Shown here piece by piece: positions 43,005-61,584 of a DNA stretch of 64,000 nt. Position 1 is the first letter of the stretch; each line of letters opens with the position of its first letter. The position numbers were made by a program, and so were the translations under genes. The notes beneath the pieces were generated by a model. It was not told where the DNA came from, ran no database searches, and worked only from the letters and a program-made list of their open reading frames with translations. Source of the DNA: Mucispirillum schaedleri (GTDB taxonomy: Bacteria; Chrysiogenota; Deferribacteres; Deferribacterales; Mucispirillaceae); NCBI GenBank assembly GCA_949287985.1, contig CASEIN010000052.1, forward strand, positions 1 through 64,000, written 5' to 3'.

Positions 43005-46000
43005 TCACTTCATCTCATCAAATATTTTTTTGATATATTCTTCATCGTCCATAAAGAAAACATGTTTATCTTCCCAGTCTTTTTGTGGCTCTGGTTTTTG
43101 TAAAACATTTATAGATTTTGGGGAAAGTATAAAAGAGTTTAACACTACATTATATTTGCCATTATCATTTAATCTTTTTTCTACTTCTTTTATACCATTA
43201 TAAAATTCTACTTTTGAATCCATTATAGATGTTCTTGATATTCCGTGTGGGTCTATAAAGTTAATATACTGCACATTATCTTTGATTACCCACATAATAA
43301 AATCAGGGTAAAATCCACTGCCAGTAAAAAATCCTACACCTTTTTTACTTTGGTTGCGGATAACATATATATCCTGTATATCAGCTTTATTATCATCAAT
43401 ATGCTTTTTCAAATCTTCTAAAAACTTATATTCACCTTCATTTAATGATACTGGGCTTATTTTTATTTCCAGATTTCTATAATTATATAATAATGGGTGG
43501 TAAAGCATAGCATCATAGGAAGCATATTTAATAATGGCAGTTGCATTTGCAACAAGTGGAGTATTTTTTTCTTGAGCTTCTTTCACTGCCTCAATTAACT
43601 CTTTTATATTGCTTTCATATTCTGCCTGTTTATCTTTATTTATAGAAATATCTACAATATCATTTTCTATAAAATTATTATCATCATCTGATAACTCTAC
43701 ATATTCTTGATACTGGCTTTCCCATTCAAGACGCTTTTTATAATAAAATTTATCAAAATATTTTTTTAAAAGCATAATAGCAATATTTTCAAGCCTTGCA
43801 ATAACTTCAAAACTACTTATGATTGTAATATCATTATAAGCATGTATTACTGACCAGCTGTCATTACATGCTAATAAATCAATAATACATTCTTTTGTAA
43901 TATTTATATTATAATTACCAGTCATATTTTTGTATTCCTGCATTTTAAAATAAATATTATCATAATTAAAAAAATGGCAGTATATTTTAGGTATATGATA
44001 TTCTTTATATGGACAATCTTTGCTTTCTATTTTTTGTGATGAAACAGACTGCACAGTATTAAATAAATCTAAAATTACATTTATATTTTCTTCATAATGC
44101 AGTATTGGAATATCTGCGTGTTTTTTATAATCAAGCCCGTCTTTTAATTTTATGGTATAAAGTTTTTTAGCTTTAAATGATTTATTCCTAATAACATTCA
44201 TTTTATATATTTCATACTCTTTTATTTCCACCCCTTCTCTTCTAATAAATTCATCAAAAGTTTTCATATAGTCTGCATTGATACCAAAAATATTGAGGGT
44301 TTCCATAGTATTAAAAAATTCTGGAGTTTTAAGAGTTAAATCAATTTTTTTATAAGCACTGCTTCTTTTAAGTGAGTTATTATACCCTTTTAAGCGGACA
44401 CCTCTGCCAAAAAGCTGTATTATGCTGCTGCCTTCACTTTGCCCCACATTTAAAAGCCCCATACATGATACACGGTATGAGTTCCAGCCTTCTGTAAACT
44501 TTTTAGCACCTATTAATATATTAATATTACTTTTATCATTATTAATACCAGCAAAAAGCGAGTCTTTAAAACTGCTTTCTGATGTATTAAAATTTTGTTC
44601 CTGCAATTTTTTAAATAACGCAGCAGCATCGCCTACATTAATCACACCAAAATATTCATTTTCCCCAGCTTTTAGTGCAATTTCTCCATCTGAACCTTTT
44701 ATATTTTCAATATGTAATATACTTTGGCTTGATGAGCAGTTAAAGATTTTTTCAAGCATATCTTTATATATAACTTCTGCATCTAATATGTTTTTAGTTA
44801 AATATTTTAATGAGCCTGCAAAAATATCCTGATTATCTTTATTTAAATAACCGCTTTCAGATTTTAAAATATTTCTAATGGCAATAACAGATTTATTATT
44901 GCTGTTTTCAAGAAACTCTTTAATAAATATTAATACTTTATCAATATCAGATTCATTTTTAGAGCCTTTATTTGTAACAGTATTACCTACAAATATTAAA
45001 AGCGGCTTTGAAATATCAAACTTTTTACAATCTGTTAGATTATTGCTGTAAAATCTTAACTGCTGATAAAATGTTAACAGCACCCCTACCATATATGTAA
45101 AATCTGCAGATATATTATTTTCTGTATTATTATAGTTTAATATATTAAAATCTTTACCATAGCCGTCATTATAAAAATACTTATAAGAATAATTAAAAAT
45201 AATAGATTTTGCATATCTTTTAAATATACTATTATTATCTTTTGATTGTGCTGCCTGACCAAATGTGGCAGAATATTCAAAAGAAAAGCCTTTTTCACAA
45301 AGTTTTTTTCTATTTTCAAGCCATGTATCTCCTTTTGTGCCTCTATGCCCTTCATCTACAAATACCACATTATCATTGCCAAGGCTTTCTACTGCTATCT
45401 GCTCCACACCTTCTTTTTCTGCAAGTTTTGTATTTTCTATAACAGAAATATAATCGCTTCCAAGTCCATGCATTTTATTAAATCTATCTGATTCAATATT
45501 AGATAATGTAAATTCTTCAATATGCTGATATGAAAGCCTTTCGTTAGGTGTAATTAAAATATAGCTGTATTCTTTATTATATTTATTTTTAGAATAATGC
45601 TTATACTGCAGAAAATTTATATGCATTAATATGGTTTTTCCACTGCCTGTGGCGCTCCAAAGGGCAATAGAATTAAGGTCATCTTCACTGTATTTATATT
45701 CTGATAATTTATATGAAAAATCATCATTATAAAATCTATCTACAAAATCATTTAATTCTGCAAGCAGCTCATCTTTATTATTAAAATACATATCAAGGTA
45801 ATATTCTACAAATAAAAGATATAAATACTGATAATATTTAAGTTTTATTTTTATGAGCCTTTCTTTATTAATATATTCTAAATGGCTGACAATATTATAA
45901 TCATATTCTGATATTTTATCTTTTAATTGTTTATCTGCTATAACAATACAAAGTTCGCTGTAATATTTTGTATGATTATCTGCATCTAATGTATCATATT

Positions 46001-46130
46001 TATGATCATCTTTAAGTAATGCAAATAAATCATCAATATTTTTATACCCAAATTTTGTGCTTATATAGTTACTTAAAACAAGCTGTTTATCAAATGAAAG
46101 TTTTTGTGTATCTTTTGTATTATTTGCCAT
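43005..46130 (-). CDS. Type III restriction enzyme Res-like helicase/nuclease
   Basis: This 1041-residue superfamily 2 helicase has Walker A SATGSGKT near residue 155, NVVFVDEGHRGTKGDTW (DEGH box), SATFGQ (motif III) and IIQLFGRGVRLKG (motif VI). A C-terminal nuclease-like region contains GFYPDFIMWVIKDNVQYINFIDPHG, matching the PD-(D/E)xK pattern less one acidic residue. It starts 10 bases behind mod with GGAAGTGG upstream. In classical type III systems Res cuts only in complex with Mod. Confidence 0.88.
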   Translation of the reverse strand: MANNTKDTQKLSFDKQLVLSNYISTKFGYKNIDDLFALLKDDHKYDTLDADNHTKYYSELCIVIADKQLKDKISEYDYNIVSHLEYINKERLIKIKLKYYQYLYLLFVEYYLDMYFNNKDELLAELNDFVDRFYNDDFSYKLSEYKYSEDDLNSIALWSATGSGKTILMHINFLQYKHYSKNKYNKEYSYILITPNERLSYQHIEEFTLSNIESDRFNKMHGLGSDYISVIENTKLAEKEGVEQIAVESLGNDNVVFVDEGHRGTKGDTWLENRKKLCEKGFSFEYSATFGQAAQSKDNNSIFKRYAKSIIFNYSYKYFYNDGYGKDFNILNYNNTENNISADFTYMVGVLLTFYQQLRFYSNNLTDCKKFDISKPLLIFVGNTVTNKGSKNESDIDKVLIFIKEFLENSNNKSVIAIRNILKSESGYLNKDNQDIFAGSLKYLTKNILDAEVIYKDMLEKIFNCSSSQSILHIENIKGSDGEIALKAGENEYFGVINVGDAAALFKKLQEQNFNTSESSFKDSLFAGINNDKSNINILIGAKKFTEGWNSYRVSCMGLLNVGQSEGSSIIQLFGRGVRLKGYNNSLKRSSAYKKIDLTLKTPEFFNTMETLNIFGINADYMKTFDEFIRREGVEIKEYEIYKMNVIRNKSFKAKKLYTIKLKDGLDYKKHADIPILHYEENINVILDLFNTVQSVSSQKIESKDCPYKEYHIPKIYCHFFNYDNIYFKMQEYKNMTGNYNINITKECIIDLLACNDSWSVIHAYNDITIISSFEVIARLENIAIMLLKKYFDKFYYKKRLEWESQYQEYVELSDDDNNFIENDIVDISINKDKQAEYESNIKELIEAVKEAQEKNTPLVANATAIIKYASYDAMLYHPLLYNYRNLEIKISPVSLNEGEYKFLEDLKKHIDDNKADIQDIYVIRNQSKKGVGFFTGSGFYPDFIMWVIKDNVQYINFIDPHGISRTSIMDSKVEFYNGIKEVEKRLNDNGKYNVVLNSFILSPKSINVLQKPEPQKDWEDKHVFFMDDEEYIKKIFDEMK

Positions 46131-46140
46131 ACACCACTTC

Positions 46141-49083
46141 CTATATACCGTTAAACATTTTATCTTTCATAACTTCTTCTATTAAAGCGACTTTATAACT
46201 GCCTTCTTTTGCAAAATTTTGCAGGCTGTTTGTGCCGTTAATATATATGATATCATATTCACTTTCTGCTGGCTTTATTTGGTTTTTTAAAGTAACAGAT
46301 TCAAGCACTGCATTATTTTTATTTAAGTCATCATTATTATTTATATCGCCTACAATATTTCGCCAAATAACAAGCACTTTTTCCCCTTTTAAAGTAGAGC
46401 CTTCCACTATTTTAAAAATATATTGCCCATTATTATCAGGCTTAATATCTGCCTGCAGTCTGCCAGTATCAATTGTTTTAAACAATGCATTATATTTTTT
46501 AGTATATATATTATTAACCTGCAGCCCTATAAGAAAATTAAAAGTTTCTATTAAATCTATCTTTTGCACCCTGCTTTCATTTTTCCTGGTGATTTTAAGC
46601 TGAAATTCAAAAGGATTATAAAAAACTTCAGCAGGCAGATATATTTTGCTGTTTTCTGCCTCTTTTTGTATTTTATATTTAGTAAGATATTCGTTTTGAA
46701 GAAAATCATCTACAACTAAAGGTTTGCTAAATTCCACATTATTAAGAGTATCTTCATAACTTTCAAGACGAATATATTTAAAAATATGGCTGCTTCCCTC
46801 TCGGCTGACAGGCTTGCCGTCTTTCCAGTCTTTAGAATATATTACTTTTTCTATGCGTGGCTTTGTAACAGTATCAAAATATTCTCCCATTTCCACTAAA
46901 ATATATTTTCTTTTACCATTTTCTTTATCTTCTCTATTAAGGTTAATAACAGCATGGCCTGTTGTGCCAGAGCCTGCAAAGAAATCAAGGATAAGAGAAG
47001 ACGAAAATATATATGTATTCATATTAATCAAATATTTTATTAATGAAATAGGTTTAGGATAACTAAAATCTTGATGTAATTTTAAATCATATAATTCTTT
47101 TAAAGCACTTTCATTTGTTCCAATTCCAACTGAACGTTCTAATTCAATATTTAGTGAATTATTAGGTGTTTTAAAAGAGCATTCATTAATAGGTCTTTGA
47201 AATCGAATAGACATTTTATTTGTTTTAATTATAAAATAAGTTCCAAGCTTTACTTCATTATCTAAGTATGGTTGAGACCACTTAAATTCACCACTCATTC
47301 TAAATGAATTATAATTATACCCATCAACTAAAACAACATCATCTAATAATTGAACTTTTTCATAATTACCCTTGTTTATTATTCCGTCATTTAGAAATAT
47401 AAATTTTACACTATTTTTAGGAAAATTTAATTCTTTAATTGGATTACCAGTATTTAATAATGGAGCATCTCCACCATCTAATAGAGAACCAAAAAAACGA
47501 TTATTTGTTAATTTTGATTCATAACATTCTATAAATTCTACTGTTTTTCTACATTTATTTGACAATCCCGGTGGAGTTGCAGTTTTAGTCCATAAAAATG
47601 AAGTAACAAAACTTTGTTCCCCAAATATTGTATCACCTACTTTTCGTAAATTACTTAATTCATTATCATCAATACTTGAAAAAAATACAGCTTTATCATT
47701 CATTAATTGCTTCATTTTCTCTAATCTGTCATACATCATAGCAAGCCAGGAAGAATGTTTATAATTATCTTTATAATTAAAATCTCTATTTTCTGTATTA
47801 TACGGTGGGTCAATATAGACGCACTGCACCTGCTCTTTATATTTTTCCTGCATTAAATTAAGGGCTTGAAAGTTATCTCCATGGATAAGTAGGCCGTCTA
47901 TATTTTCATCTAGATTTTCAATATCTGCTATTATTTTTTCTTTAAATTCTTCACTAAAAAAGGAAGTATCTAGCACTAAATATTCATTAGCTTTTAAAAA
48001 CTCTTTTGTTAATGGTTCACTGTATTCTTTAGTATGTAAATCGCCTTTTATTTCATCTATAGCAAAAAGTTTTTTCCATTCTTCAATCTGTGCTTGATTT
48101 GCTATTATTTCATCATAATATTTTTCATTTATTTTATCTAATGTTATACAATAGTTTGTTTCTGTTACAAATTTCTTTTTTAAATAAAGTTCTTTTTGAA
48201 AATCTTCCAATTGAGCTAAAAAAGTGATTATTTCACTGCCTATATTTTGTATAACACTTGCTTTTTTTACATACATATCCAGATTTTTTATATTATCCTT
48301 ACTGCCATATAAATCCTGCAAATAGATGACTTCGTTTTTTATATAAAAATCTAACTCCTGCATTAAAAATTTTTTTAAATCTTTATGGATAAAAAAATCA
48401 AAACTGTTTTTTGCTATATATTTATTTAAGTGATATCCTATATGACTTTTTGTATATATATCTTTATCTTTATCCTGCTCATTTCTTATTTTAAAAAGGT
48501 TGCCTATTTTTGATTTTATATGTGATGAAATTTCATTATTATTTTCAAGCTGTTTTACTGCATTGATTATTGCTTCACTGCTTTCTTTCTGCTTTACATC
48601 TTTACCATATCTATAAGAAAGCCTTATAAAAAGCTCTGCTCTTGTTTTTTCTTCATTTTCTAATACATATATTGGCTTTTCATATTCTTCTGATGCTTCT
48701 GCTAATACATATACTTTCTTATCGTCTGATTTGTTGTTATCTCTTTCTATCTCTGCATCTGTTAATATAAAAGTTACATTAAAATCATCTTCTATATTAA
48801 ATGTATAATCTTTAAAATTTTCACCAGTTTTTATGTAATACTGGTCATGGTTTGCCCAGTGGAGTTTTACTTCCTCCCCGCTGTATGGCACTGCATATAC
48901 ACCGTCTTTATATCTTCTTTGGGATATAAAATCGCCCTCATCATAATATCTGCTAAAAAATGTAAGCAGTTTATCATATATTTCTTCTTCTGTATTGCCA
49001 CTTAATGATGCCTGTTGTAACTGGGATATTTCACTTTTTATATCTTCTATCTTTTTAACAGCATCTAAATTCCCCCCCCCCAA
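46141..49083 (-). CDS. Type III-like DNA adenine methyltransferase (Mod), main reading frame
   Basis: This is the large part (about 976 residues) of a beta-class N6-adenine (or N4-cytosine) methyltransferase: VQCVYIDPPYNTENRDF (motif IV, DPPY) comes before LILDFFAGSGTTGHAV (motif I), with a long variable target-recognition region between. Its true N-terminus is the short frame at 49055-49321, cut off by a run of ten G at 49072-49081. With nine G the two frames join into a 1059-residue protein. The only upstream start in this frame is a TTG inside the G tract with no ribosome site, so full-length Mod is probably not made in this state. Confidence 0.9.
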   Translation of the reverse strand: MGGGNLDAVKKIEDIKSEISQLQQASLSGNTEEEIYDKLLTFFSRYYDEGDFISQRRYKDGVYAVPYSGEEVKLHWANHDQYYIKTGENFKDYTFNIEDDFNVTFILTDAEIERDNNKSDDKKVYVLAEASEEYEKPIYVLENEEKTRAELFIRLSYRYGKDVKQKESSEAIINAVKQLENNNEISSHIKSKIGNLFKIRNEQDKDKDIYTKSHIGYHLNKYIAKNSFDFFIHKDLKKFLMQELDFYIKNEVIYLQDLYGSKDNIKNLDMYVKKASVIQNIGSEIITFLAQLEDFQKELYLKKKFVTETNYCITLDKINEKYYDEIIANQAQIEEWKKLFAIDEIKGDLHTKEYSEPLTKEFLKANEYLVLDTSFFSEEFKEKIIADIENLDENIDGLLIHGDNFQALNLMQEKYKEQVQCVYIDPPYNTENRDFNYKDNYKHSSWLAMMYDRLEKMKQLMNDKAVFFSSIDDNELSNLRKVGDTIFGEQSFVTSFLWTKTATPPGLSNKCRKTVEFIECYESKLTNNRFFGSLLDGGDAPLLNTGNPIKELNFPKNSVKFIFLNDGIINKGNYEKVQLLDDVVLVDGYNYNSFRMSGEFKWSQPYLDNEVKLGTYFIIKTNKMSIRFQRPINECSFKTPNNSLNIELERSVGIGTNESALKELYDLKLHQDFSYPKPISLIKYLINMNTYIFSSSLILDFFAGSGTTGHAVINLNREDKENGKRKYILVEMGEYFDTVTKPRIEKVIYSKDWKDGKPVSREGSSHIFKYIRLESYEDTLNNVEFSKPLVVDDFLQNEYLTKYKIQKEAENSKIYLPAEVFYNPFEFQLKITRKNESRVQKIDLIETFNFLIGLQVNNIYTKKYNALFKTIDTGRLQADIKPDNNGQYIFKIVEGSTLKGEKVLVIWRNIVGDINNNDDLNKNNAVLESVTLKNQIKPAESEYDIIYINGTNSLQNFAKEGSYKVALIEEVMKDKMFNGI

Positions 49084-49321
49084 GTTCTTCTAAAGTTTTA
49101 ATTTTTGTTTCAAGCTCTTTAATTTTAGCTGTATTATCAACACTTACTGTTTGCATACTTTTTAAAAATTCATTTATTTTATTGGGAAGTGTATTATTTA
49201 TATAATTTTCAATATCACTTTTTTTCTCATTTATTATTCTATATATACCAAAATCTAACCCATTATTTATTTGAAATAATTCATGTAATTTTTCAATAAA
49301 TGCCTGCTGTTTTGCTGCCAT
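49055..49321 (-). CDS. N-terminal fragment of Mod, out of frame in this assembly
   Basis: This 88-residue frame starts at ATG 49321, overlaps the SNF2 gene stop by one base (TAATG) and has GGGAGG 7 bases upstream, a strong coupled start. It contains LHELFQINNGLDFGIYRIINEKKSDIENYI, a block seen at the start of large adenine methyltransferases, then a coiled coil ending EELGGG. After the G tract it leaves the Mod frame and stops within six codons. It is the real start of the mod gene, not a separate small gene. Confidence 0.85.
   Translation of the reverse strand: MAAKQQAFIEKLHELFQINNGLDFGIYRIINEKKSDIENYINNTLPNKINEFLKSMQTVSVDNTAKIKELETKIKTLEELGGGEFRCC
49072..49081 (-). repeat. G10 homopolymer inside mod (phase-variation tract)
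   Basis: Ten consecutive G on the coding strand, in an AT-rich genome where I saw no other G or C run of this length. The number of G sets the frame: 9 or 12 gives full-length Mod, 10 gives a stop six codons later. Confidence 0.9.
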
Positions 49322-52185
49322 TAGATAACCTCCCAAGCTATTGTATATATTTCTTCTAATTTTGCATCTTTTACCATACGGCTTTTTATTTCTTCTATTA
49401 ATGCTTTTCGTTTTTCATATACTGCATCTTCATTATCTTCTAAATTACGGCGCATTTTGCTTTTTTTAGCATTTAATTCCAGTAATTCTTGGTTTAAATT
49501 ATATTTTTCTTCCATACTTGATGCAAGCCTTATTTGCTTTTCTTTTTCTCTTACAAGCTCTTTTATATTTTTCAGCTCTATCTCAAGCCGCTGCACCATA
49601 TCTTTTGACCAGCCCTCAAGCCGTTCTTCTTCCTGCTGAAAATACTGCATATTATTTTTTTCTGATACTATATCTTTTTCACGAGCATATTTTTCTATTT
49701 TGCTTTTTAATATATTTCTCTTATCTTCTGCTATTTCTGACACTTCATATTTACCCATACATTCAAACAACTTTTCGCACACATTTTCTGCTACAAACTC
49801 CCCGTTTTCCTGCATACCTGCAAAAAGTAAATATTCTTCCTTATCAAATGAATTAATTGTATATTTATATAAACTTAAATACCCTTTACGACCCTTTAAA
49901 TTTTCCACTTGGGTTATTTTAAGGGGGTTATCTGTTATATTAAAAATAACTTTGCCACTTTTTTCTGGTATGTGTAACCCTCTTTTTATTACATATTCAC
50001 CTAAAGGGTGGTTGGTTCTATATATTATACCGTTATTATTTTCATATTTTTTAGAGATTAATGCATATTTGCCAGAAATAATATTATCTATATTATCCTT
50101 TAAATAAAAACTATGGTCATCATCATTAAATTCTGCTTTTTCATGTAATATATATTTACTTAAAAGCCAAAATTGGCTGGAAAATTTATCTAAATATTCA
50201 TCTATATTTAATTTTAATCTTTCAAAAACTTCACTGTCAAAATTTTTAAATAAATCTTCATGGGCTTTTTGTATATTTTGATTAATTATTTCTTCCATAC
50301 TTTTTTGAAGCTCATTGAAACTTTGCTCTATTTCTTCATGTGTTCTACACTGCTGATATATTTCTAATATTTTTCTTTCAAAATCTATACATGATTCTAA
50401 TGCACCCAGTACTTCATCACTAGAACCAAATACACCATTAAATAAATTAAATTTATGGGCTAAAAGCTCATATACTCGCCTATCCACATCGTTAGATTCA
50501 TTAATAAAGTTTATTACAACCACATCATTTTTTTGCCCATACCTGTGGCATCTGCCTATACGCTGCTCTATCCTTTGGGGGTTCCATGGCAGGTCGTAAT
50601 TTATCACTAACGAACAAAACTGTAAGTTTACACCTTCGGCAGCTGATTCTGTTGCTATCATTATTTCTGCACTATCCCTAAAATATTCTATTAAAGCATT
50701 TCTTTTATCTGCCGTTTTAGAGCCGCTGCACCTGCCAGTATATTTATTTTTTTCAAGCCAGTCATTATATATAGCTGTAGTTTCTGCTCCACTATTACTA
50801 CCGTTAAATAATACAAGTTTTCCTTTATAACCATTTTCTTCTAAAAAATCTTTTAAAAACTTTTGTGTTCTTGTGCTTTCTGTAAAAATAAGGGCTTTTT
50901 TATTGCCACCAAGTTTATTTGTCTGCTTAAAACCCTCATCTAATGCAAGTAATAGCTTTTCTGCCTTTGCATCTTTTTTTATATGCGTTGCTATATCTAA
51001 AAAACCTTTTATTTCTTCTATCTCTTTATTTAATAACCCTAAATCTATTGTATCGAAACTATCCTGCTCATCATCATCTTCACATACATCATCTTCTAAA
51101 CTTTCTGATATTAAATATTTTAAATCATCATCACCATCTAGTATAAATACACCTTCATTATCCTTATCAACATACACTTTTCCTCCTGCCTGCTCCCTTA
51201 AAGTTTCTAATCTTTTAAGTATGGTTTGAAGTGTATTTATTACAGCGTTTGTGGAAGATGCCAGAACTTTACGAACAACAAGTGTTACTATATGCCTTTG
51301 GTTTACAGGCACAGCATAAGTATATTCCCTTTGCAAAAACTGGGATATTTTTTCATATAAAGTGTTTTCCAGCTTTGAAGGCTTAAATTTAAATACTATA
51401 GGGTGACGGGCAGTATATTTTATATACTCCATAACATCTTTTCTTAGGGTTCTATAACAAAATTGATTTAAACGCGTTTTTAAATCGCCTAAATCACCAC
51501 TACCCGCATAATTTGCACGGAAAGATTTTATATCACCAAAAATATATTCATCTATTACTGAAGCAAGGCCAAAAAGCTCTGCCAAATTATTTTGTAAAGG
51601 GGTAGCCGTTAGTAATAATTTACGAGTGCTTTTTAAAGCAGGCACTAAACTTTTGCCAAGCCTGTTGCTTGAACGGTAAGAATTACGCAGCTTATGTGCC
51701 TCATCTAAAACAGCTAAATGAAAATTATTTATAAGTATTTCTTCGCTTATTTTTGAAGCATAGTTGTATGACATAATAAAAATATTATCATAAAGTAATG
51801 GCGATTTACCGTGTTCTTTTTTATATAGTTTATAGGACTGGCTGTCTACTATCATGGAAGGAAGATTGAACTTTTCCTGTAATTCTATTGACCATTGCTT
51901 CCGTAAAGCAGCAGGGCATATTACTAAAAGCCTGCGTTTGCCCTCTGCCCATAACTGGCATAATATTAAACCTGCCTCTATAGTTTTACCAAGCCCCACT
52001 TCATCTGCCAATATTACACCCTTAGAAAGGGGGGAATTAAAAGCAAATAAAGCAGCATTTACTTGATGAGGGTTTACAACCAAAGCAGCATCAAATAATG
52101 ATGAAGATAAACGGCTTTCATCACTATAAGATTTCTTTAATAATAACTGATTAGCATAATATTTCCCATGAAATGGCGTTATCAA
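49321..52185 (-). CDS. SNF2-family helicase
   Basis: This 954-residue SWI2/SNF2 ATPase has GVILADEVGLGKTIEAGLI near residue 56 (Walker A), LAVLDEAHKLRN (DEAH box), LLLTATPLQNN (motif III), then ESAAEGVNLQFC and QRIEQRIGRCHRYGQ (motifs V, VI). A long coiled-coil C-terminal region (about 830-950) follows. The start is TTG at 52185 with GAGGG ahead. It is coupled to mod by a one-base overlap, so helicase, Mod and Res form one unit. Similar helicases are used to translocate DNA in defence systems. Confidence 0.92.
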   Translation of the reverse strand: MITPFHGKYYANQLLLKKSYSDESRLSSSLFDAALVVNPHQVNAALFAFNSPLSKGVILADEVGLGKTIEAGLILCQLWAEGKRRLLVICPAALRKQWSIELQEKFNLPSMIVDSQSYKLYKKEHGKSPLLYDNIFIMSYNYASKISEEILINNFHLAVLDEAHKLRNSYRSSNRLGKSLVPALKSTRKLLLTATPLQNNLAELFGLASVIDEYIFGDIKSFRANYAGSGDLGDLKTRLNQFCYRTLRKDVMEYIKYTARHPIVFKFKPSKLENTLYEKISQFLQREYTYAVPVNQRHIVTLVVRKVLASSTNAVINTLQTILKRLETLREQAGGKVYVDKDNEGVFILDGDDDLKYLISESLEDDVCEDDDEQDSFDTIDLGLLNKEIEEIKGFLDIATHIKKDAKAEKLLLALDEGFKQTNKLGGNKKALIFTESTRTQKFLKDFLEENGYKGKLVLFNGSNSGAETTAIYNDWLEKNKYTGRCSGSKTADKRNALIEYFRDSAEIMIATESAAEGVNLQFCSLVINYDLPWNPQRIEQRIGRCHRYGQKNDVVVINFINESNDVDRRVYELLAHKFNLFNGVFGSSDEVLGALESCIDFERKILEIYQQCRTHEEIEQSFNELQKSMEEIINQNIQKAHEDLFKNFDSEVFERLKLNIDEYLDKFSSQFWLLSKYILHEKAEFNDDDHSFYLKDNIDNIISGKYALISKKYENNNGIIYRTNHPLGEYVIKRGLHIPEKSGKVIFNITDNPLKITQVENLKGRKGYLSLYKYTINSFDKEEYLLFAGMQENGEFVAENVCEKLFECMGKYEVSEIAEDKRNILKSKIEKYAREKDIVSEKNNMQYFQQEEERLEGWSKDMVQRLEIELKNIKELVREKEKQIRLASSMEEKYNLNQELLELNAKKSKMRRNLEDNEDAVYEKRKALIEEIKSRMVKDAKLEEIYTIAWEVI

Positions 52186-52265
52186 AATACCCTCACAAAT
52201 TAAATGTTAATAAAAATGTATGCTAACATATTTATATAATTTTGGCTAGTAGGGAAATTTATAGG

Positions 52266-53516
52266 TTAACTTTTCTCACAATAAATAAAATCTAAAATAG
52301 CCTGAGCTATTTTGTGCGAAAGAATTGGAGGAACTGCATTACCAATCTGTTTAAATGCTGCTGATCTAGAATGTTCAAATACAAAATTATCTGGAAACCC
52401 TTGAATTCTTGCAGCCTCCCTTACTGTGATTGAACGATTTTGGTCTATATCTGGGTGTATATAATAGTGACCATCTTTTGCAATATGAGCAACTACAGTA
52501 TGACATATGGAATTATAATCTAATGCTTTATACCTATCCAAAAAACTACTTTTATTAGAATGAGTCTGTAAATTTTTAGGAATATTATTATACTTTAAGT
52601 TTTTTCCTTGTTTTTTTGCTTCTACAACTAATTTATATATTTTTAAATCATTTTTATTATGTGGACGAGCAATATGTTGCAATAAAATATCTTTTTCATT
52701 GCGTATATATTTAGAAATATAGTTACTAAAAATTTTTCGACAATACTTATTTGATGTTTCTCCTGCTTGTAACTTTGGTAAATCCTCAAATAACTCTTTC
52801 AATGTCGGTGCTTCTTCCATATAGCTTGTTAGATAATCAAAAAAAGAGTGCTTCAATTTTAAATCTTTTCTGTGCCCCACAAGAAATAATCGCTCTCTAC
52901 TTTGAGCAACTCCATAGTCATTAGCATTAATTATTTTACAGCTTACTTCATATCCAACTTGATCAAATTCATTAATTATTTTAGGCAATAAGAAATCACC
53001 TGAAATATCTTTAAAGGATAATAATCCTTTAACATTTTCAAAGATAAAAAATTTAGGTTTATACTCTTCCAAAAAGTTAAGATAATATTTATATAAATAA
53101 ATTCTTTCATCTGTCATTTTTTTAGCTTTATTATTAACTCTACCTATCATTGAGTATGCTTGACATGGTGGACCACCTATAATCCCATCTAATTTTTTAC
53201 CATCAAGACTACTATTAATATATTTAAATATTAGAGGTAAAGTATCATGATTGATTTCTTCATTAATAACACTATGTATAATATTTTTTGGTACATAACT
53301 ATACAATATTTCTTTTGAAATTATTCCAGAAATATAATCATAATACACTGATAAATCATTATTTTGTCTCAAATAATAATATATATTTCTCAAAACCAAA
53401 GAAGAACAAGCTTCTTTATCCTTTTCTATATGACATATTATATTAAAACTATTATTTAGCCTAAAACCCTCTGTTAATCCACCAGCCCCAGAAAATAAAT
53501 CTATGATATTTAACAC
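52266..53516 (-). CDS. DNA (cytosine-5)-methyltransferase
   Basis: This 416-residue enzyme has motif I IIDLFSGAGGLTEGF (residues 4-18), motif IV GGPPCQAYS with catalytic C118, motif VI FIFENVKGL, motif VIII NDYGVAQSRERLFLVGHR, and motifs IX-X (TVREAARIQGFP, QIGNAVPPILS). An unusual insertion of about 50 residues lies between motifs II and IV. All motifs look active. It follows the receiver-domain gene by 31 bases. No dedicated restriction gene for it is adjacent. Confidence 0.94.
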   Translation of the reverse strand: MLNIIDLFSGAGGLTEGFRLNNSFNIICHIEKDKEACSSLVLRNIYYYLRQNNDLSVYYDYISGIISKEILYSYVPKNIIHSVINEEINHDTLPLIFKYINSSLDGKKLDGIIGGPPCQAYSMIGRVNNKAKKMTDERIYLYKYYLNFLEEYKPKFFIFENVKGLLSFKDISGDFLLPKIINEFDQVGYEVSCKIINANDYGVAQSRERLFLVGHRKDLKLKHSFFDYLTSYMEEAPTLKELFEDLPKLQAGETSNKYCRKIFSNYISKYIRNEKDILLQHIARPHNKNDLKIYKLVVEAKKQGKNLKYNNIPKNLQTHSNKSSFLDRYKALDYNSICHTVVAHIAKDGHYYIHPDIDQNRSITVREAARIQGFPDNFVFEHSRSAAFKQIGNAVPPILSHKIAQAILDFIYCEKS

Positions 53517-53547
53517 TATTTTCTTCTCCTATTACTAATACAAATCG

Positions 53548-54687
53548 TTAGTTAGTTAATTTATCCAATATAATATCAGAATTAAATTTTGGTTGACCTT
53601 GCCTATGATAATAGCTACTAAATCTTGAAACTATATCTTTTTTAAAATGATCCGTAATTACTCCTATTTTTTCATATGTATTATCTTCTAGTGTTCCAGT
53701 ATTCTTATTATATTTCAAAAATATCATGGAGCGAAAATCAACAAAACCTCCTTTAAAGTTATTTACAGGAGGTAAAAAATGATATCTTAATGATGCTGAT
53801 GAAGAATTAGTAAACCATAAAAATAACTTTTCTAATTTCTCTTTTTTTTCTTTATCTTTATTTTCTCTATTATAACTTTTTAATAACTCAGAAAAGTTCT
53901 GTACATTATCATAGCTTTTAATTTCGCACATTATAATATCCTCCACCTTTTTATTAACAAGGTCACATGTAGGATTCATAACCAAATAATATGAATTAGA
54001 AGAATCCATAAATATATCACAAGTACATATTTGATCAATTGGATTAGGAAAAAGATACATCTCAATAGGTTCAAAATCTTCATATCCGTCATCATACATA
54101 TATTTATTAGTAAGCCAATTAGAAATATATCTGATTATCACTTTTCTTTTTTTACTATTATCTAAATGAGTTATATCACTTTTATTTTTTAAAAAAAAAT
54201 TAGGAATAATATTCCATATTAAATTTTTAAAATTTGTGTTTATATCTCCTTTTGTACCATAAATTTCAAAAAGAAAATGATCATACTTATCAAGAAAAGT
54301 TTTTATAACTTTATAAAATGATTCATCTTTACTGCAGATAGTTATAAAATCATTATGATTATTTATTATTGATAATTTATGTGGAGTAGCCGATCTAACA
54401 ATTATAGGCATAACTTCTCTATCCATTATTTGATTTAATATAATATTACCAGAAATATCATCATCATCTTTTGTCATATCATCATTACTTAAATTTAAAT
54501 CAATAATTACTATACTATAGTTATTTCTATATAGCTTGATGATTGCTTCCTCAGGATTTAAAGCTACATCAAGTATGAAACTAATATCATCATCTTTATA
54601 TGTATTGTTTAATTCACTAATTTCTGATTGTAGTAATTCTTCTTGTTCTTTATCATCATCAATCAACAATAAACTAATATTCCTCAT
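53548..54687 (-). CDS. Receiver-domain protein with unassigned C-terminal domain
   Basis: This protein of about 379 residues begins with a receiver-like domain: LLLIDDDKEQ (acidic pocket near residue 10), IVIIDLNLS with candidate phospho-acceptor D63, IIVRSATPH, and a conserved Lys in SKDESF. The remaining 240 residues are not a DNA-binding output. They include YYLVMNPTCDLVNK and a C-terminal VSRFSSYYHRQGQPKF block that I know only as a domain seen near defence genes. I start at ATG 54687 (GAGGAG upstream). It starts one base after the kinase-like gene, so the two are coupled. Confidence 0.78.
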   Translation of the reverse strand: MRNISLLLIDDDKEQEELLQSEISELNNTYKDDDISFILDVALNPEEAIIKLYRNNYSIVIIDLNLSNDDMTKDDDDISGNIILNQIMDREVMPIIVRSATPHKLSIINNHNDFITICSKDESFYKVIKTFLDKYDHFLFEIYGTKGDINTNFKNLIWNIIPNFFLKNKSDITHLDNSKKRKVIIRYISNWLTNKYMYDDGYEDFEPIEMYLFPNPIDQICTCDIFMDSSNSYYLVMNPTCDLVNKKVEDIIMCEIKSYDNVQNFSELLKSYNRENKDKEKKEKLEKLFLWFTNSSSASLRYHFLPPVNNFKGGFVDFRSMIFLKYNKNTGTLEDNTYEKIGVITDHFKKDIVSRFSSYYHRQGQPKFNSDIILDKLTN

Positions 54688-54688
54688 T

Positions 54689-56851
54689 TCACTCCTCACT
54701 TTTATATAAAATAATTCTAAAATATCCACCATAACTATAATCTACAGCTTCTAATTTACCATGATTTCTCTGTACAGCCTCACCAGCGATCGCTAAACCC
54801 AAGCCTGTTCCATTTTCACTCGTAACAGTATATTTTTTTGAATACCCTGGATAAAAGAGTAGATTCTCTATTATATCTTCTGATGGTACACCTGGTCCAT
54901 TATCAATTATTTCAATTACTATATTTTTTTCATCACTATACATTTTTATTTTTATTATTTTTTTATCTTGTTTTGAATAATCAACCCAAAAGATTGCATT
55001 TTCTATAATATTTGTTAATGCCATATATAAATCTTCTTCAATGATAGCATAATAAATATTATCTGATAAATAATATTCTATTATAATATTTTTTTCCTGT
55101 ATTATATTTTCAAATATTTCAACAACTTCTAGTATTTTTTCTTTAAGATTAATAACCTGTTTTTTCTTTCTTTTATTGGCAGATAATGGGTCTAATCTTT
55201 TAAATAAATTGCTCATTCTGCCAGCTTCACAACTTAATTTTTGAATAGTATTTATTAAATCATTGTAGCCACTAGAACTAATTTCATTATTTAAATTTAA
55301 TGCACTAAGTTTACGTTCCATATATGGTAATTTATTACCATACCATGAAAGAGGCTTTCTTGCTTCATGTAACACAACATTAAGTACATTTCCTAATGTT
55401 GCATGTTTTTGATATATGGCTATAGCTTCTTTAACCTCTATAAACTCTGCTTCTTTTTCCTTTTCTAGCTTTTTAAGTTCGTTACCTATCCCTTTATTAA
55501 GTTTAGAAATTTGCTCCTTAACATTTTCAGGATTATTTTGTAAATTTTGATATGTTTCTTCAATTAATTTCTCAACATTTTGATGGACATCACTAAAATC
55601 AAATAATCTCTCTATAGCAGCAGTCTTTCTTTTATTTCTTGTTTGTCTATATTTAAATCTTTCTTCTTGCAATAATTGAAGTGCTCTCCATGACAATTCC
55701 ACTAAAGTATTAAAATTTTGATTTTCATACAATCCATCTCTTGCACTTTTTTCTTTTAGTCCAGATATATCTTCATCTTCTATACTAATTCTTCCATGTA
55801 TTTGTTCTGAACCGATTGACATACTAGGATTTTGTACACGTTTAGAATCAAGATATAACCAATCAAACCCTGGATCTCCATATGGCCTAATTCTAAATCC
55901 ATTGCGAAAAATACTCACTCCTGACTGATCTTTTAATATTTTTTTTATCTTTGCAGTAGAGTACCGAGTATCATGAGTGCCATTTATAAAATTAGTAATT
56001 AATTCTATACCTGCTGGATCTTTATCATATACATTGTAATCAATTGTAATATTACCACACGATGGATTGTTTTCATTTAATATATTTTTAAAACTATTTA
56101 CAAATTTCTTTTCTTCTTTAGTATAATAATTTTTGTATGTCAATTCATAACTGAAATCAGAATAAATATTACCAAATAATCTATAGTGGCATACATCACT
56201 ATACACTAATGGTTTTATAGGTTTGCATATATTTTTTTCATGAATTTGGAAAAATCTATCATAACATACTTCTATATGAAAATCATCTTTTTTCGCTAAA
56301 AGTTTAGATAATTCATTTTCTATATTCTCTATATCTTTTTCATCTATTTTCTCTTGTGCTGAATTATCATTTATAATAGTTAGAATTGTACCATTTTGCT
56401 GATTTGTTTCACTTATTTCTATATCTATAGGTATTTCACTTAGTTTTTTTTCAGAATTAAAATCATCCCAATCAAAAGAAGCTGTTGTTTTCTCACCATT
56501 ACATATGGTCATTAACTCTAACTTATTACCTAAGATTGAAACAGCATAGCGTCCTAATCCCTTTCTTCCCTGATATTTTCTTCCTTTGGGACTAACTTGT
56601 TTTTTTAATTTATAATCAGTTGATGGAACCATCCATGCACCAGTAACAATATCACTACTCATACCATGCCCATCATCTTCAATAGTAATAATCAAGTCTT
56701 CTAATATTTTTTTAAATGTTATTTTTACATAGCTGGCATCTGCATCATAAGAGTTTTTAACTAACTCTACTATTGCTGCCTGAGGATCTTTAATTAAATC
56801 TTTTCCTATAGACATAATGAGCCTACCAGTAGGTTCAAAAAAACTTTTCAT
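54689..56851 (-). CDS. Dual GHKL ATPase, histidine-kinase-like protein
   Basis: This 720-residue protein has two GHKL ATPase domains. The N-terminal one is HSP90/MORC-like: AIVELVKNSYDADA (N33), IEDDGHGM, GRKGLGRYAVSILG. After a coiled coil (about 385-470) comes an H-box-like VVLHEARKPLSW and a second, histidine-kinase-type ATPase: NIIENAIFWVD, IEIIDNGPGVP, GTGLGLAIAG. No membrane segments are present, so it senses something inside the cell. It pairs with the receiver-domain gene. Phosphotransfer is inferred from the motifs. Confidence 0.85.
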   Translation of the reverse strand: MKSFFEPTGRLIMSIGKDLIKDPQAAIVELVKNSYDADASYVKITFKKILEDLIITIEDDGHGMSSDIVTGAWMVPSTDYKLKKQVSPKGRKYQGRKGLGRYAVSILGNKLELMTICNGEKTTASFDWDDFNSEKKLSEIPIDIEISETNQQNGTILTIINDNSAQEKIDEKDIENIENELSKLLAKKDDFHIEVCYDRFFQIHEKNICKPIKPLVYSDVCHYRLFGNIYSDFSYELTYKNYYTKEEKKFVNSFKNILNENNPSCGNITIDYNVYDKDPAGIELITNFINGTHDTRYSTAKIKKILKDQSGVSIFRNGFRIRPYGDPGFDWLYLDSKRVQNPSMSIGSEQIHGRISIEDEDISGLKEKSARDGLYENQNFNTLVELSWRALQLLQEERFKYRQTRNKRKTAAIERLFDFSDVHQNVEKLIEETYQNLQNNPENVKEQISKLNKGIGNELKKLEKEKEAEFIEVKEAIAIYQKHATLGNVLNVVLHEARKPLSWYGNKLPYMERKLSALNLNNEISSSGYNDLINTIQKLSCEAGRMSNLFKRLDPLSANKRKKKQVINLKEKILEVVEIFENIIQEKNIIIEYYLSDNIYYAIIEEDLYMALTNIIENAIFWVDYSKQDKKIIKIKMYSDEKNIVIEIIDNGPGVPSEDIIENLLFYPGYSKKYTVTSENGTGLGLAIAGEAVQRNHGKLEAVDYSYGGYFRIILYKSEE

Positions 56852-57192
56852 AGCAATGTCTCCGTCTATAAATTGAATAGTTTTATCCTATACCTTTTTT
56901 TAAAAAAAATAAAGCACAATAAATTAAATATCACAACAATATACCTTATAATTAACAATAAATTTAATAATATATAATCAAAATAAATATCTGATAAAGC
57001 TTTAAATATGTATAGCATAATTACTTAGTCAATAATAATGCAACAAATAAAAATTAAATATTATTATAAAAAAAAGAAATCAACAAAACACAAGATAATT
57101 ATACTTCATATCTCTTTCTTCTATCCAACTCATTATTCATAGTTAATGCGGATATCTATATCATTATACCCATAACAACCTATATCACATAC
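56852..57192. other. Intergenic region upstream of the kinase-like gene
   Basis: These 340 bases are AT-rich. They should contain the promoter of the eight-gene defence run and the 3' end of the DUF234 ATPase operon. I see no strong promoter, hairpin or repeat. Confidence 0.4.
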
Positions 57193-58593
57193 TTATCCAT
57201 CTAATGCTGCAACCATATCTTTATATGTTACCAGTCGCACATTTCCCATTTTCTCTGCTCTGCTTTTGAGTGCATTAGTAAAGCCAGATTTAGAAAATAT
57301 ATAGTAATACTTTTCATATTTAAAATTCATGCTTTTATCTATCAGATTATCAAGCACATCTACATCTGCTTTTTTATTAGTCCATTTACATTCACCAAAT
57401 ATAGCTCTGTTTTCAGTATCTGTTCCAAAAATATCTATCTCTATCTGTGTTTTACTAATATTACTTGTGCCCCACCATCTGCCTATATTATTAAAAGATA
57501 CCTCACTTTTACCCATAAGCAGCATTTGCCACATATAATCTATACATATATTTTCAAAAACCGAGCCCATATATTTTGAAATATTCTGCTCTATATATTT
57601 ATACACATTCTCTACTGCCCCTTTAGAGATAGCCGACATATTGGGCTGAATAAACCTATACCAAAACCTAAACATATTATCTGTAATAGAATATGTTGTT
57701 TTCTTACTTTTATCTTCTCCTGCAGGTATTTCTTTTTTGACTATACCTAATGATATTAGGTTTTTAATATACATAGAGCATATACTTGTCTGCTCCCCTG
57801 TTTTAGAAGATATTTCTGAAAGTTTTGTATATCCGTTGGCTATAGCTGATATTATAGAATTATAAACAGCAGGCTCTCTCATTTCCTGTTTTAAAAAGTT
57901 TACTGGCTCTTCATACATAAAAGATGACGGCTCTAAAAAAATATTTTTTATGTTTTCTTCTAATGAAAGCTTATCATTTATCTGCAATAAATACTGTGGT
58001 GTGCCCCCTGCAATGCCATAAGCTAATGCTTTATCTTCATTTGAGAAGTTTTTTGTATATGCAGTTGATTCAAAAAAATTTAACGGATTAATTTGCAACT
58101 GAGCTGTCCGCCTGCCATATAAAGGTGCTTTATATGATAGCACATTCTCTTCCATATAGGACATAGAAGAACCGCATAAGATGATATATAATTTTGATGT
58201 ATCTTTATATTTATCAATTAGAAATTGCAGTGTAGATGCAAGACTTTTAGATGCTTTTGCAATATAGGGGTATTCATCGATACATAATATTAATCTTTTA
58301 TCCTGTGCTTTTTCAAATATAAACTCTAATGCAGACTGGTATGAGTCATATACTGGTGCTGTGCCGTAAATATTTTCAGTCTGTTCCCATATAGCTTTAC
58401 TGAAATTTTCTAAATTCTGCTTTTCATTACCTTCTATACCTGTAAAATATACTGCATCTTTATCTTTTATGAATTCTTTTATTACACTTGTTTTGCCTAT
58501 ACGCCTTCTGCCATACATAACTATACACTGAAAAATATCCGTCTGATAGTGCTTGTTTAGTATAGATAATTCTTTCTGCCTGCCTATAAACAT
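57193..58593 (-). CDS. AAA ATPase with DUF234 domain
   Basis: This 466-residue archaeal-type ATPase starts with MFIGRQKELSILNKHY, has Walker A YGRRRIGKTSVIKEF near residue 28 and Walker B LILCIDEYPYIA near 100. It continues with a winged-helix part and ends in a DUF234 nuclease-like domain (IEIDIFGTDTENRAIFGECKWTNKKADVDVLDNL), with a D...ExK arrangement. Such ATPases are abundant in host-associated anaerobes and often lie in mobile regions. The function is unknown. Confidence 0.87.
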   Translation of the reverse strand: MFIGRQKELSILNKHYQTDIFQCIVMYGRRRIGKTSVIKEFIKDKDAVYFTGIEGNEKQNLENFSKAIWEQTENIYGTAPVYDSYQSALEFIFEKAQDKRLILCIDEYPYIAKASKSLASTLQFLIDKYKDTSKLYIILCGSSMSYMEENVLSYKAPLYGRRTAQLQINPLNFFESTAYTKNFSNEDKALAYGIAGGTPQYLLQINDKLSLEENIKNIFLEPSSFMYEEPVNFLKQEMREPAVYNSIISAIANGYTKLSEISSKTGEQTSICSMYIKNLISLGIVKKEIPAGEDKSKKTTYSITDNMFRFWYRFIQPNMSAISKGAVENVYKYIEQNISKYMGSVFENICIDYMWQMLLMGKSEVSFNNIGRWWGTSNISKTQIEIDIFGTDTENRAIFGECKWTNKKADVDVLDNLIDKSMNFKYEKYYYIFSKSGFTNALKSRAEKMGNVRLVTYKDMVAALDG

Positions 58594-60552: not shown

Positions 60553-60668
60553 AATCTTTCTCCAACAAAACTTATTATATATAATAGTGTATAACCCTGC
60601 AAGTAAAATATAAAATTTTTTGTAACCAGTGTATAAATATTTACGACAAAGTAAATGTGGAGGTATTT

Positions 60669-61265
60669 ATGGGGTTAATTATTAAAATGTTATTACTTAC
60701 TGTTTTTATTTTTATAGTTTCTGGTTGTGCTGATATGACTGCAGAAGAAATTAGAGCAAACCTGTATGGAACAAAAAGCAATTTCCACACCCATAATCTA
60801 CCAAACTACAATGATAATAACACCAACACTAATACTACATCTTATAATAATGCTTTAAATTCAAACAATAGTAATAATACAAACTATACGTCTAATGATT
60901 ATACTCAAGAGCAACAATATAACAGCCCATATATTACAAATGATTATAATATGAACCAAATGTATAACACACCTTATACAGATTATAATAATCAAATGTA
61001 TAATAACCCATATACAGCAAATAATTATGATACATACCAAATGCAAAATAACCCTTATAATGCATATAATAACGAAGCCTACCAAAACTATATAAATCAA
61101 ATGAATACATATAATCAGGAAGCTTATGAAGCATACCAAAATTATTTAAACCAAATGCCTGCTTACAATTACGATACAAGCCAAATGTATAATAATAACT
61201 TGCCTGCTTATAACTCTGAAAACTATAATATGATGATGCCAAATAACAATGAAGCTAATCAATAA
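60669..61265 (+). CDS. Asn/Tyr/Gln-rich low-complexity lipoprotein
   Basis: This protein of about 198 residues has a lipoprotein signal (MGLIIKMLLLTVFIFIVSGCAD). About 150 residues made almost only of Asn, Tyr, Gln, Thr, Pro and Met follow, with recurring units such as QMYNNPYT, QMQNNPYN and AYQNYLNQM. The composition is like prion-type or adhesive surface proteins. I start at ATG 60669 with GGAGG 5 bases upstream, not at the in-frame GTG at 60657, which overlaps that site. No homologous family is recognised. Confidence 0.75.
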   Translation: MGLIIKMLLLTVFIFIVSGCADMTAEEIRANLYGTKSNFHTHNLPNYNDNNTNTNTTSYNNALNSNNSNNTNYTSNDYTQEQQYNSPYITNDYNMNQMYNTPYTDYNNQMYNNPYTANNYDTYQMQNNPYNAYNNEAYQNYINQMNTYNQEAYEAYQNYLNQMPAYNYDTSQMYNNNLPAYNSENYNMMMPNNNEANQ

Positions 61266-61584
61266 TATTATTATGTTCTTATTAAGCAAAAAAATCCGAA
61301 GAAAATGATATACAACATTACTTATGTAATATACACTTGCTTTATCTAATAAAATCTTTGAATTAATGGCAAAATTATCACTTTTAAATATCTTATATAA
61401 AAAATAAATATATAGCTGGTAATATTTTTTATACTTTTATTTTCATTTACCATATATTTTCTTATCTTTATAAAAAAATTATATATAAAAAAGCATACTA
61501 AAATAAACTAATAATATAAAATTGTTTGCTTATCCTAAAAAAATAATATATAATAGGTATGAATAATATATATAAAAGGTAGTT
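61266..61584. other. AT-rich intergenic region upstream of mnmA
   Basis: No gene or strong hairpin is visible. The mnmA promoter is presumably in the last 80 bases. Confidence 0.4.

Follow-up and report, generated by a model that had tools for sequence, protein, structure and literature searches.

The first 64,000 nucleotides of Mucispirillum schaedleri contig CASEIN010000052.1 (hereafter the window) encode a soluble histidine kinase (HK), a response regulator (RR) and a C5 cytosine methyltransferase that recur together in many other bacteria. Across these relatives the phospho-acceptor His and Asp and the kinase ATPase residues are conserved, the RR pairs a receiver fold with a predicted toxin-type fold, and in two members the methylase has been exchanged together with a site-reading domain on the kinase. 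We put at about one in two the probability that this trio moves horizontally as a self-contained unit and is a restriction-like, probably abortive system working by phosphorelay.

The three genes lie on the reverse strand in the order HK (54,689–56,851; 720 amino acids (aa)), RR (53,548–54,687; 379 aa) and C5 methylase (52,266–53,516; 416 aa, GTG start). All three are intact. Open reading frame (ORF) and strand calls agree with the original prediction, a note made from these letters, which gave the same order and intergenic gaps of 1 and 31 bases. An in-frame ATG also lies upstream of the RR at 54,732, and the methionine at 54,687 is the start used by relatives. The trio methylase is the sole C5 methylase in the 2.4-Mb genome; the adjacency of the three genes is therefore not a matter of chance. 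Among 50 genomes of the host phylum that were searched, the RR occurs in this one only; nine of the remaining 49 belong to the same genus. Homology to the window in four same-genus genomes ends at 61,509, just upstream of mnmA, which places the trio within a strain-variable region. Its G+C content is 26.2%, against 29.8% for the window, and scans for promoters and terminators gave signals no higher than in shuffled sequences.

Searches of the HK against Pfam found the two GHKL ATPases that the original prediction had described in a soluble protein with an H-box. The N-terminal ATPase, of paraMORC type (HATPase_c_3, E 9e-27; residues 24–147, 56,411–56,782, reverse strand, delimited by Pfam and the HK alignment), keeps E29, N33, D59, G61, G63, K97, G98 and G100 invariant in 38 of 38 HKs. 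The C-terminal kinase ATPase (HATPase_c, E 7e-21; residues 605–702, 54,746–55,039, reverse strand) has intact N and G boxes, which are invariant across the HKs except for G654 (35 of 38). Between them, His495 of the H-box (motif LHEARKPL; codon at 55,367–55,369, reverse strand) is invariant in all 38 HKs of the alignment and is followed by Glu or Asp. PADLOC models matched the HK only in the GHKL parts of other systems.

No Pfam family matches the RR at E ≤ 0.01 (Response_reg appears at 0.55), so the identity of its receiver rests on structure. An AlphaFold2 model built from a 39-sequence alignment (pLDDT 88) places a receiver domain at residues 1–142 (54,262–54,687, reverse strand), with a structural match at Z 14.9 and 2.5 Å over 121 residues. 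Asp63 (codon at 54,499–54,501, reverse strand) is invariant in 39 of 39 RRs, the acidic pair of beta1 is largely kept and residue 99 is Thr or Ser in all; the trio thus has both the conserved phospho-acceptor His and the conserved receiver Asp of a canonical two-component system. The full-length RR fits no PADLOC model; the PADLOC candidate PDC-M60B was rejected as its identity because the matches are confined to the receiver.

Beyond a helical linker lies the effector domain (residues 219–362, 53,602–54,033, reverse strand). Receivers filled the fold search with the whole model, and the C-terminal part was therefore modelled alone (pLDDT 87). The best 50 PDB entries for this isolated model were all MazF, Kid or CcdB proteins, and the comparison with MazF-mt3 gave Z 11.1 and 2.7 Å over 101 residues. 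Across the PDB, 143 chains scored Z ≥ 8 and just two fell between Z 5 and 8, while Foldseek returned the same fold at a modest E of 5e-3 (probability 1.00). The comparison of predicted structures, which the original prediction had suggested, upholds its receiver and gives its non-DNA-binding C-terminal domain a predicted fold of MazF/CcdB type. We call this domain a predicted toxin-type fold and regard it as a putative toxin. Viral contigs and phage records held no relatives of the RR or of its C-terminal domain, PHROG matches were weak, short and mutually inconsistent, and a BFVD search returned nothing convincing.

Residues Y211, P239, C241, D242, P306, R362, G364 and P366 are invariant among the RRs, and C241, D242 and R362 could form a catalytic site. 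This leaves room for a reading with the same sensing and relay in which the C-terminal domain is a DNA nuclease, or a nuclease recruiter, that cuts the invader. The N-terminal GHKL module of the HK does resemble BbrUII/HgiDII-type restriction enzymes (NF050001, 64 bits), the partner is a C5 methylase, as in type II restriction–modification (R-M), and Vsr and PD-(D/E)XK genes lie near some relatives. We nevertheless consider such DNA restriction unlikely, since the fold matches RNase and gyrase toxins and not PD-(D/E)XK or HNH nucleases, and minimal loci have no separate nuclease.

The methylase matches the Pfam family DNA_methylase with 220 bits, and by eye its C5 motifs DLFSGAGGL, GGPPCQ, ENVKG, QSRERL and GNAVPP are intact. 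No known type II endonuclease family adjoins it at the locus. Its nearest PADLOC model is DrmMII (PDLC02649, 495 bits), a likeness to class 2 DISARM. DISARM itself was rejected: DrmA, DrmB and DrmC are unassigned among the eight genes at 43,005–58,593, where a SNF2 protein gave just a generic-helicase match to DrmA. The spacer between motifs I and IV is 98–101 residues long in nearly all canonical trio methylases, compared with 76 in Dcm and 57 in two swapped methylases described below. We considered the long spacer as a site of contact with the HK; distant members have short spacers.

Using the RR alone, we collected 49 loci, four from plasmid records and 45 from one genome per species, in Deferribacterota-like bacteria, Firmicutes, Proteobacteria, Fusobacteria, Campylobacter, Bacteroidota and others. 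The HK lies next to the RR wherever the contig permits, and, counted strictly, 43 of the 49 have a C5 methylase no more than 300 bp from the HK or RR. The commonest order, C5-HK-RR, occurs in 30 loci; 8 share the window's order HK-RR-C5, and in 5 the C5 gene is convergent to HK-RR. The remaining loci include one with broken HK and RR genes (L014), one at a contig end (L029) and two with the RR between HK and C5 (L047, L051). The closest relatives, from Enterococcus, Streptococcus mitis, Mesocricetibacter, Veillonella and Haemophilus, share 42–50% identity in the RR, 59–64% in the HK (L008–L013) and about 68–70% in the C5 methylase. Tree distances correlate at 0.80 for HK and RR, 0.56 for HK and C5 and 0.49 for RR and C5, values reached by none of 2000 permutations, and the HK–C5 figure rises to 0.72 once loci with a replaced methylase are omitted. 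The two-component-style module tied to a C5 methylase that the original prediction proposed is therefore recurrent, and its His and Asp, whose loss among relatives would have spoken against it, are conserved.

In Mesocricetibacter (L010), Veillonella (L011), Fusobacterium (L007) and on a Campylobacter plasmid (L060) the trio stands alone between housekeeping or unrelated genes, with no other recognised restriction or helicase gene adjoining; this stand-alone occurrence in several genomes is new. Other relatives carry additional genes, with a Vsr-like cluster in 16 loci and Z1 helicase, AIPR and PD-(D/E)XK partners in at most five (among them L005, L016, L023 and L034). The original prediction was right that Z1 and Vsr are missing at this locus, while relatives carry both as options, which makes them accessories.

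The stand-alone trios bear on a published proposal, in which the two-component pair serves as a sensor of conditions that regulates R-M genes at the level of expression or activity (Bellieny-Rabelo 2021, PMC8011034). Neighbourhood statistics in that report favour such a role, as does the conserved HK and RR chemistry. We find it quite improbable for the trio, given that a stand-alone trio has no restriction enzyme to regulate, that the RR has a toxin-type fold in place of a DNA-binding output domain, and that a concerted swap of reader and methylase, described next, is unexpected for a general regulator.

Two HKs have an EcoRII-N domain added at the N terminus, that of L022 scoring 64.7 bits and that of L028 scoring 52.5 bits against a cut-off of 25. 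In the EcoRII endonuclease, this domain is an allosteric activator that binds CCWGG (PMC4081073). The methylases of the same two loci score 275–297 bits to Dcm/M.EcoRII-like enzymes, compared with 81 bits to Dcm for the next-best trio methylase. Their target-recognition motif is common to Dcm, M.EcoRII-like enzymes and the dcm genes beside free-standing EcoRII-N proteins, and target-recognition identity is 39–46% to the Dcm/M.EcoRII group but 17–23% to the methylases of L025 and the window. L022 has a near-sister in L025 (HK body 80% and RR 76% identical), which lacks EcoRII-N and has an ordinary methylase of 28% identity, whereas the HK bodies of L028 and L022 are only 40% identical. Reader and methylase specificity have thus changed together while the HK body and RR stayed, which is most simply explained if the site marked by the methylase has to be the one that the kinase reads. 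In HKs that have no EcoRII-N domain, the GHKL module, or else the methylase itself, may act as the site reader.

The original prediction raised the idea of a phosphorelay that gates a methylase or an unknown effector. If the methylase were gated, the phosphorylated RR would activate or inhibit the C5 enzyme. Tight linkage and co-evolution with C5 fit this idea. Of the readings considered we hold it the least probable: the methylase of L022 and L028 was replaced by one of a very different C5 subfamily while the RR remained 76% identical to its sister's, and a dedicated RR–methylase interface would not easily survive such a replacement.

The mechanism that we favour instead has the methylase mark self and the relay drive the RR's own MazF/CcdB-fold effector. 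The C5 methylase would mark host sites as self, and the HK would detect the same sites when unmethylated, in some members through the EcoRII-N reader, with its N-terminal MORC/HSP90-type ATPase probably serving as a DNA-loading clamp. Unmethylated sites would stimulate autophosphorylation of the HK on His495, from which the phosphate would pass to Asp63 of the RR. Phosphorylation, probably via receiver dimerisation, would then switch on the C-terminal domain, and the activated RR may attack translation, gyrase or the invading nucleic acid so that infection aborts. On self DNA, methylation would keep the system silent.

The same mechanism would also serve a module kept mainly by addiction, in which loss of the methylase lets the HK–RR pair kill the cell and so stabilises plasmids and islands, with anti-phage action secondary. 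Its presence on mobile DNA, including conjugative Campylobacter plasmids, and in a variable region of this host fits this emphasis. We judge it improbable as the main role, as the neighbours here are other defence genes and selection for defence remains compatible with an identical mechanism. Among the mobile copies, two Campylobacter plasmids (L006, L060) hold the HK, RR and convergent C5 methylase together; HK relatives occur in 41 records of conjugative C. jejuni and C. coli plasmids, and the HK match is split into two or three pieces in one group of C. jejuni plasmids. In Streptococcus cristatus (L014, 2,776–11,278) the HK is fragmented with genes between the pieces, the RR frame is interrupted and the C5 methylase is intact, a pattern that fits tolerated loss of the effector and non-tolerated loss of the methylase.

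Several observations weigh against the phosphorelay restriction reading. At receiver residue 120, the position of the beta5 Lys, 20 of the 39 RRs have Lys and 19 have Arg. No sequence link joins the RR C-terminal domain to MazF (hhalign probability 0.1; no Pfam toxin, PF02452 or related, at E ≤ 10), the fold call depends on AlphaFold2 models built from one alignment, and a predicted toxin-type fold held in common does not amount to toxicity. The C5 linkage has two real exceptions. On an Enterobacter mori plasmid (L004) no C5 gene was found in the regions flanking the HK–RR pair or within the plasmid's first 40 kb, possibly because the copy is inactive or relies on a host methylase, and the DNA of this pair has no match in E. 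coli genomes; in L049 the nearest C5 gene is 7.9 kb away. The EcoRII-N fusions number two, both in Flavobacteriales, and block transfer of reader and methylase between lineages would make them one event. A search of 395 Flavobacteriales genomes for further fusions found just two EcoRII-N ORFs, which at about 390 aa are as long as an ordinary EcoRII endonuclease.

The association itself is partly known, and the original prediction overstated the novelty of coupling the relay to a C5 methylase: an HK–RR–C5 association had been predicted for the homologous Response_reg_2 (PF19192)/HEF_HK (PF19191) family, with a signalling role in R-M control (PMC8011034). That family, like the trio, combines a soluble HK (HATPase_c_3, H-box and HATPase_c), an adjacent RR and a C5 methylase. 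Direct membership was rejected, as PF19191 matched none of 38 HKs (E ≤ 0.01) and PF19192 none of 39 RRs, with a positive control (L053) at 112.7 bits. By profile comparison with two PF19192/PF19191-type pairs, the HK core (99%, E 3e-18) is homologous, and so is the C-terminal domain of the RR (93%, E 3e-7), where the TPxCD motif and the terminal R-x-G are shared. The RRs here have 340–430 aa and a near-canonical receiver, compared with 587–629 aa in the two PF19192 proteins examined. Given profile homology without Pfam matches, we treat the trio as a sister branch of Response_reg_2/HEF_HK.

A term search of PMC8011034 found no MazF, RR output fold, reader domain or EcoRII-N fusion, with EcoRII named only as a neighbouring nuclease domain. 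The toxin-type fold and the reader/methylase swap are not described in the open-licence PMC literature searched, and we regard both as new within that scope. A HATPase/REC prediction in a DefensePredictor figure legend (PMC13092281) could not be matched to this system.

Several known systems share parts of the trio. MORC/paraMORC restriction clusters (Iyer 2008, PMC2292703) and Mza/Z1 systems have an N-terminal GHKL ATPase, a C5 methylase and optional Vsr, Z1 and AIPR, but in the trio the GHKL module is joined with a histidine kinase in one protein and partnered by a receiver-effector protein, and the MzaABCDE/Z1 partners (Z1 helicase, AIPR, PD-(D/E)XK) are absent at this locus. MazF/Kid/CcdB toxins share the predicted fold, whereas the RR domain is fused to a receiver, has no antitoxin gene and carries its own invariant P-x-C-D and R-x-G-x-P motifs. 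EcoRII-type II R-M likewise pairs a C5 methylase with a reader of the same site, and in the trio that reader is joined to a kinase rather than an endonuclease. In a parallel arrangement, plasmid operons L074–L078 encode a free-standing EcoRII-N protein with a DEAD/DEAH helicase, an ATP-binding protein, an HNH nuclease, Vsr and dcm; this protein looks like the site-reader subunit of MORC-type restriction systems, and the output of this arrangement is a nuclease.

In restriction systems, recognition and cutting are normally the work of a single enzyme or complex. If borne out, a soluble two-component relay that connects a methylation-sensitive reader with a toxin-fold effector would be a different restriction architecture. 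It would explain the frequent absence of nucleases from GHKL/C5 clusters and give a function to the published, unexplained Response_reg_2/HEF_HK family. We tentatively propose, at somewhat less than even odds, a new restriction class whose members read unmethylated sites and signal by His–Asp phosphorelay to a toxin of MazF/CcdB fold; reader/methylase pairs would be interchangeable, and Response_reg_2/HEF_HK would form a second branch. The finding is real and recurrent, its gene association was already half-known, and, should the biochemistry hold, it has a credible route to being a new class; members of EcoRII-N/Dcm type allow the model to be tested directly in E. coli K-12, where CCWGG is already methylated.

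Among the closest relatives, L008, L009 and L012 have a second C5 methylase immediately before the trio, and in L008 a HaeIII-type endonuclease gene (RE_HaeIII, 449 bits) lies upstream of the HK, in a gene cluster that L009 and L012 share. In the window, the same-strand cluster extends beyond the trio at 43,005–52,185 with genes that the original prediction omitted: a DrmD-like SNF2 helicase, a 93-aa ORF, a type III-like methylase and a type III-like restriction subunit. The 93-aa and 980-aa ORFs match consecutive stretches (3–57, then 84 on) of a single MTase_III model and are possibly a frameshift-split gene. Functional coupling of the trio to the helicase and the type III-like mod/res pair was rejected, as they do not co-travel in the 49 fetched loci. 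Directly upstream of the trio, a DUF234 ATPase (57,193–58,593, reverse strand) matches the PADLOC candidate PDC-S27 with 197 bits, and an Asn/Tyr-rich ORF on the forward strand (60,657–61,265) has internal repeats behind a lipoprotein-like start.

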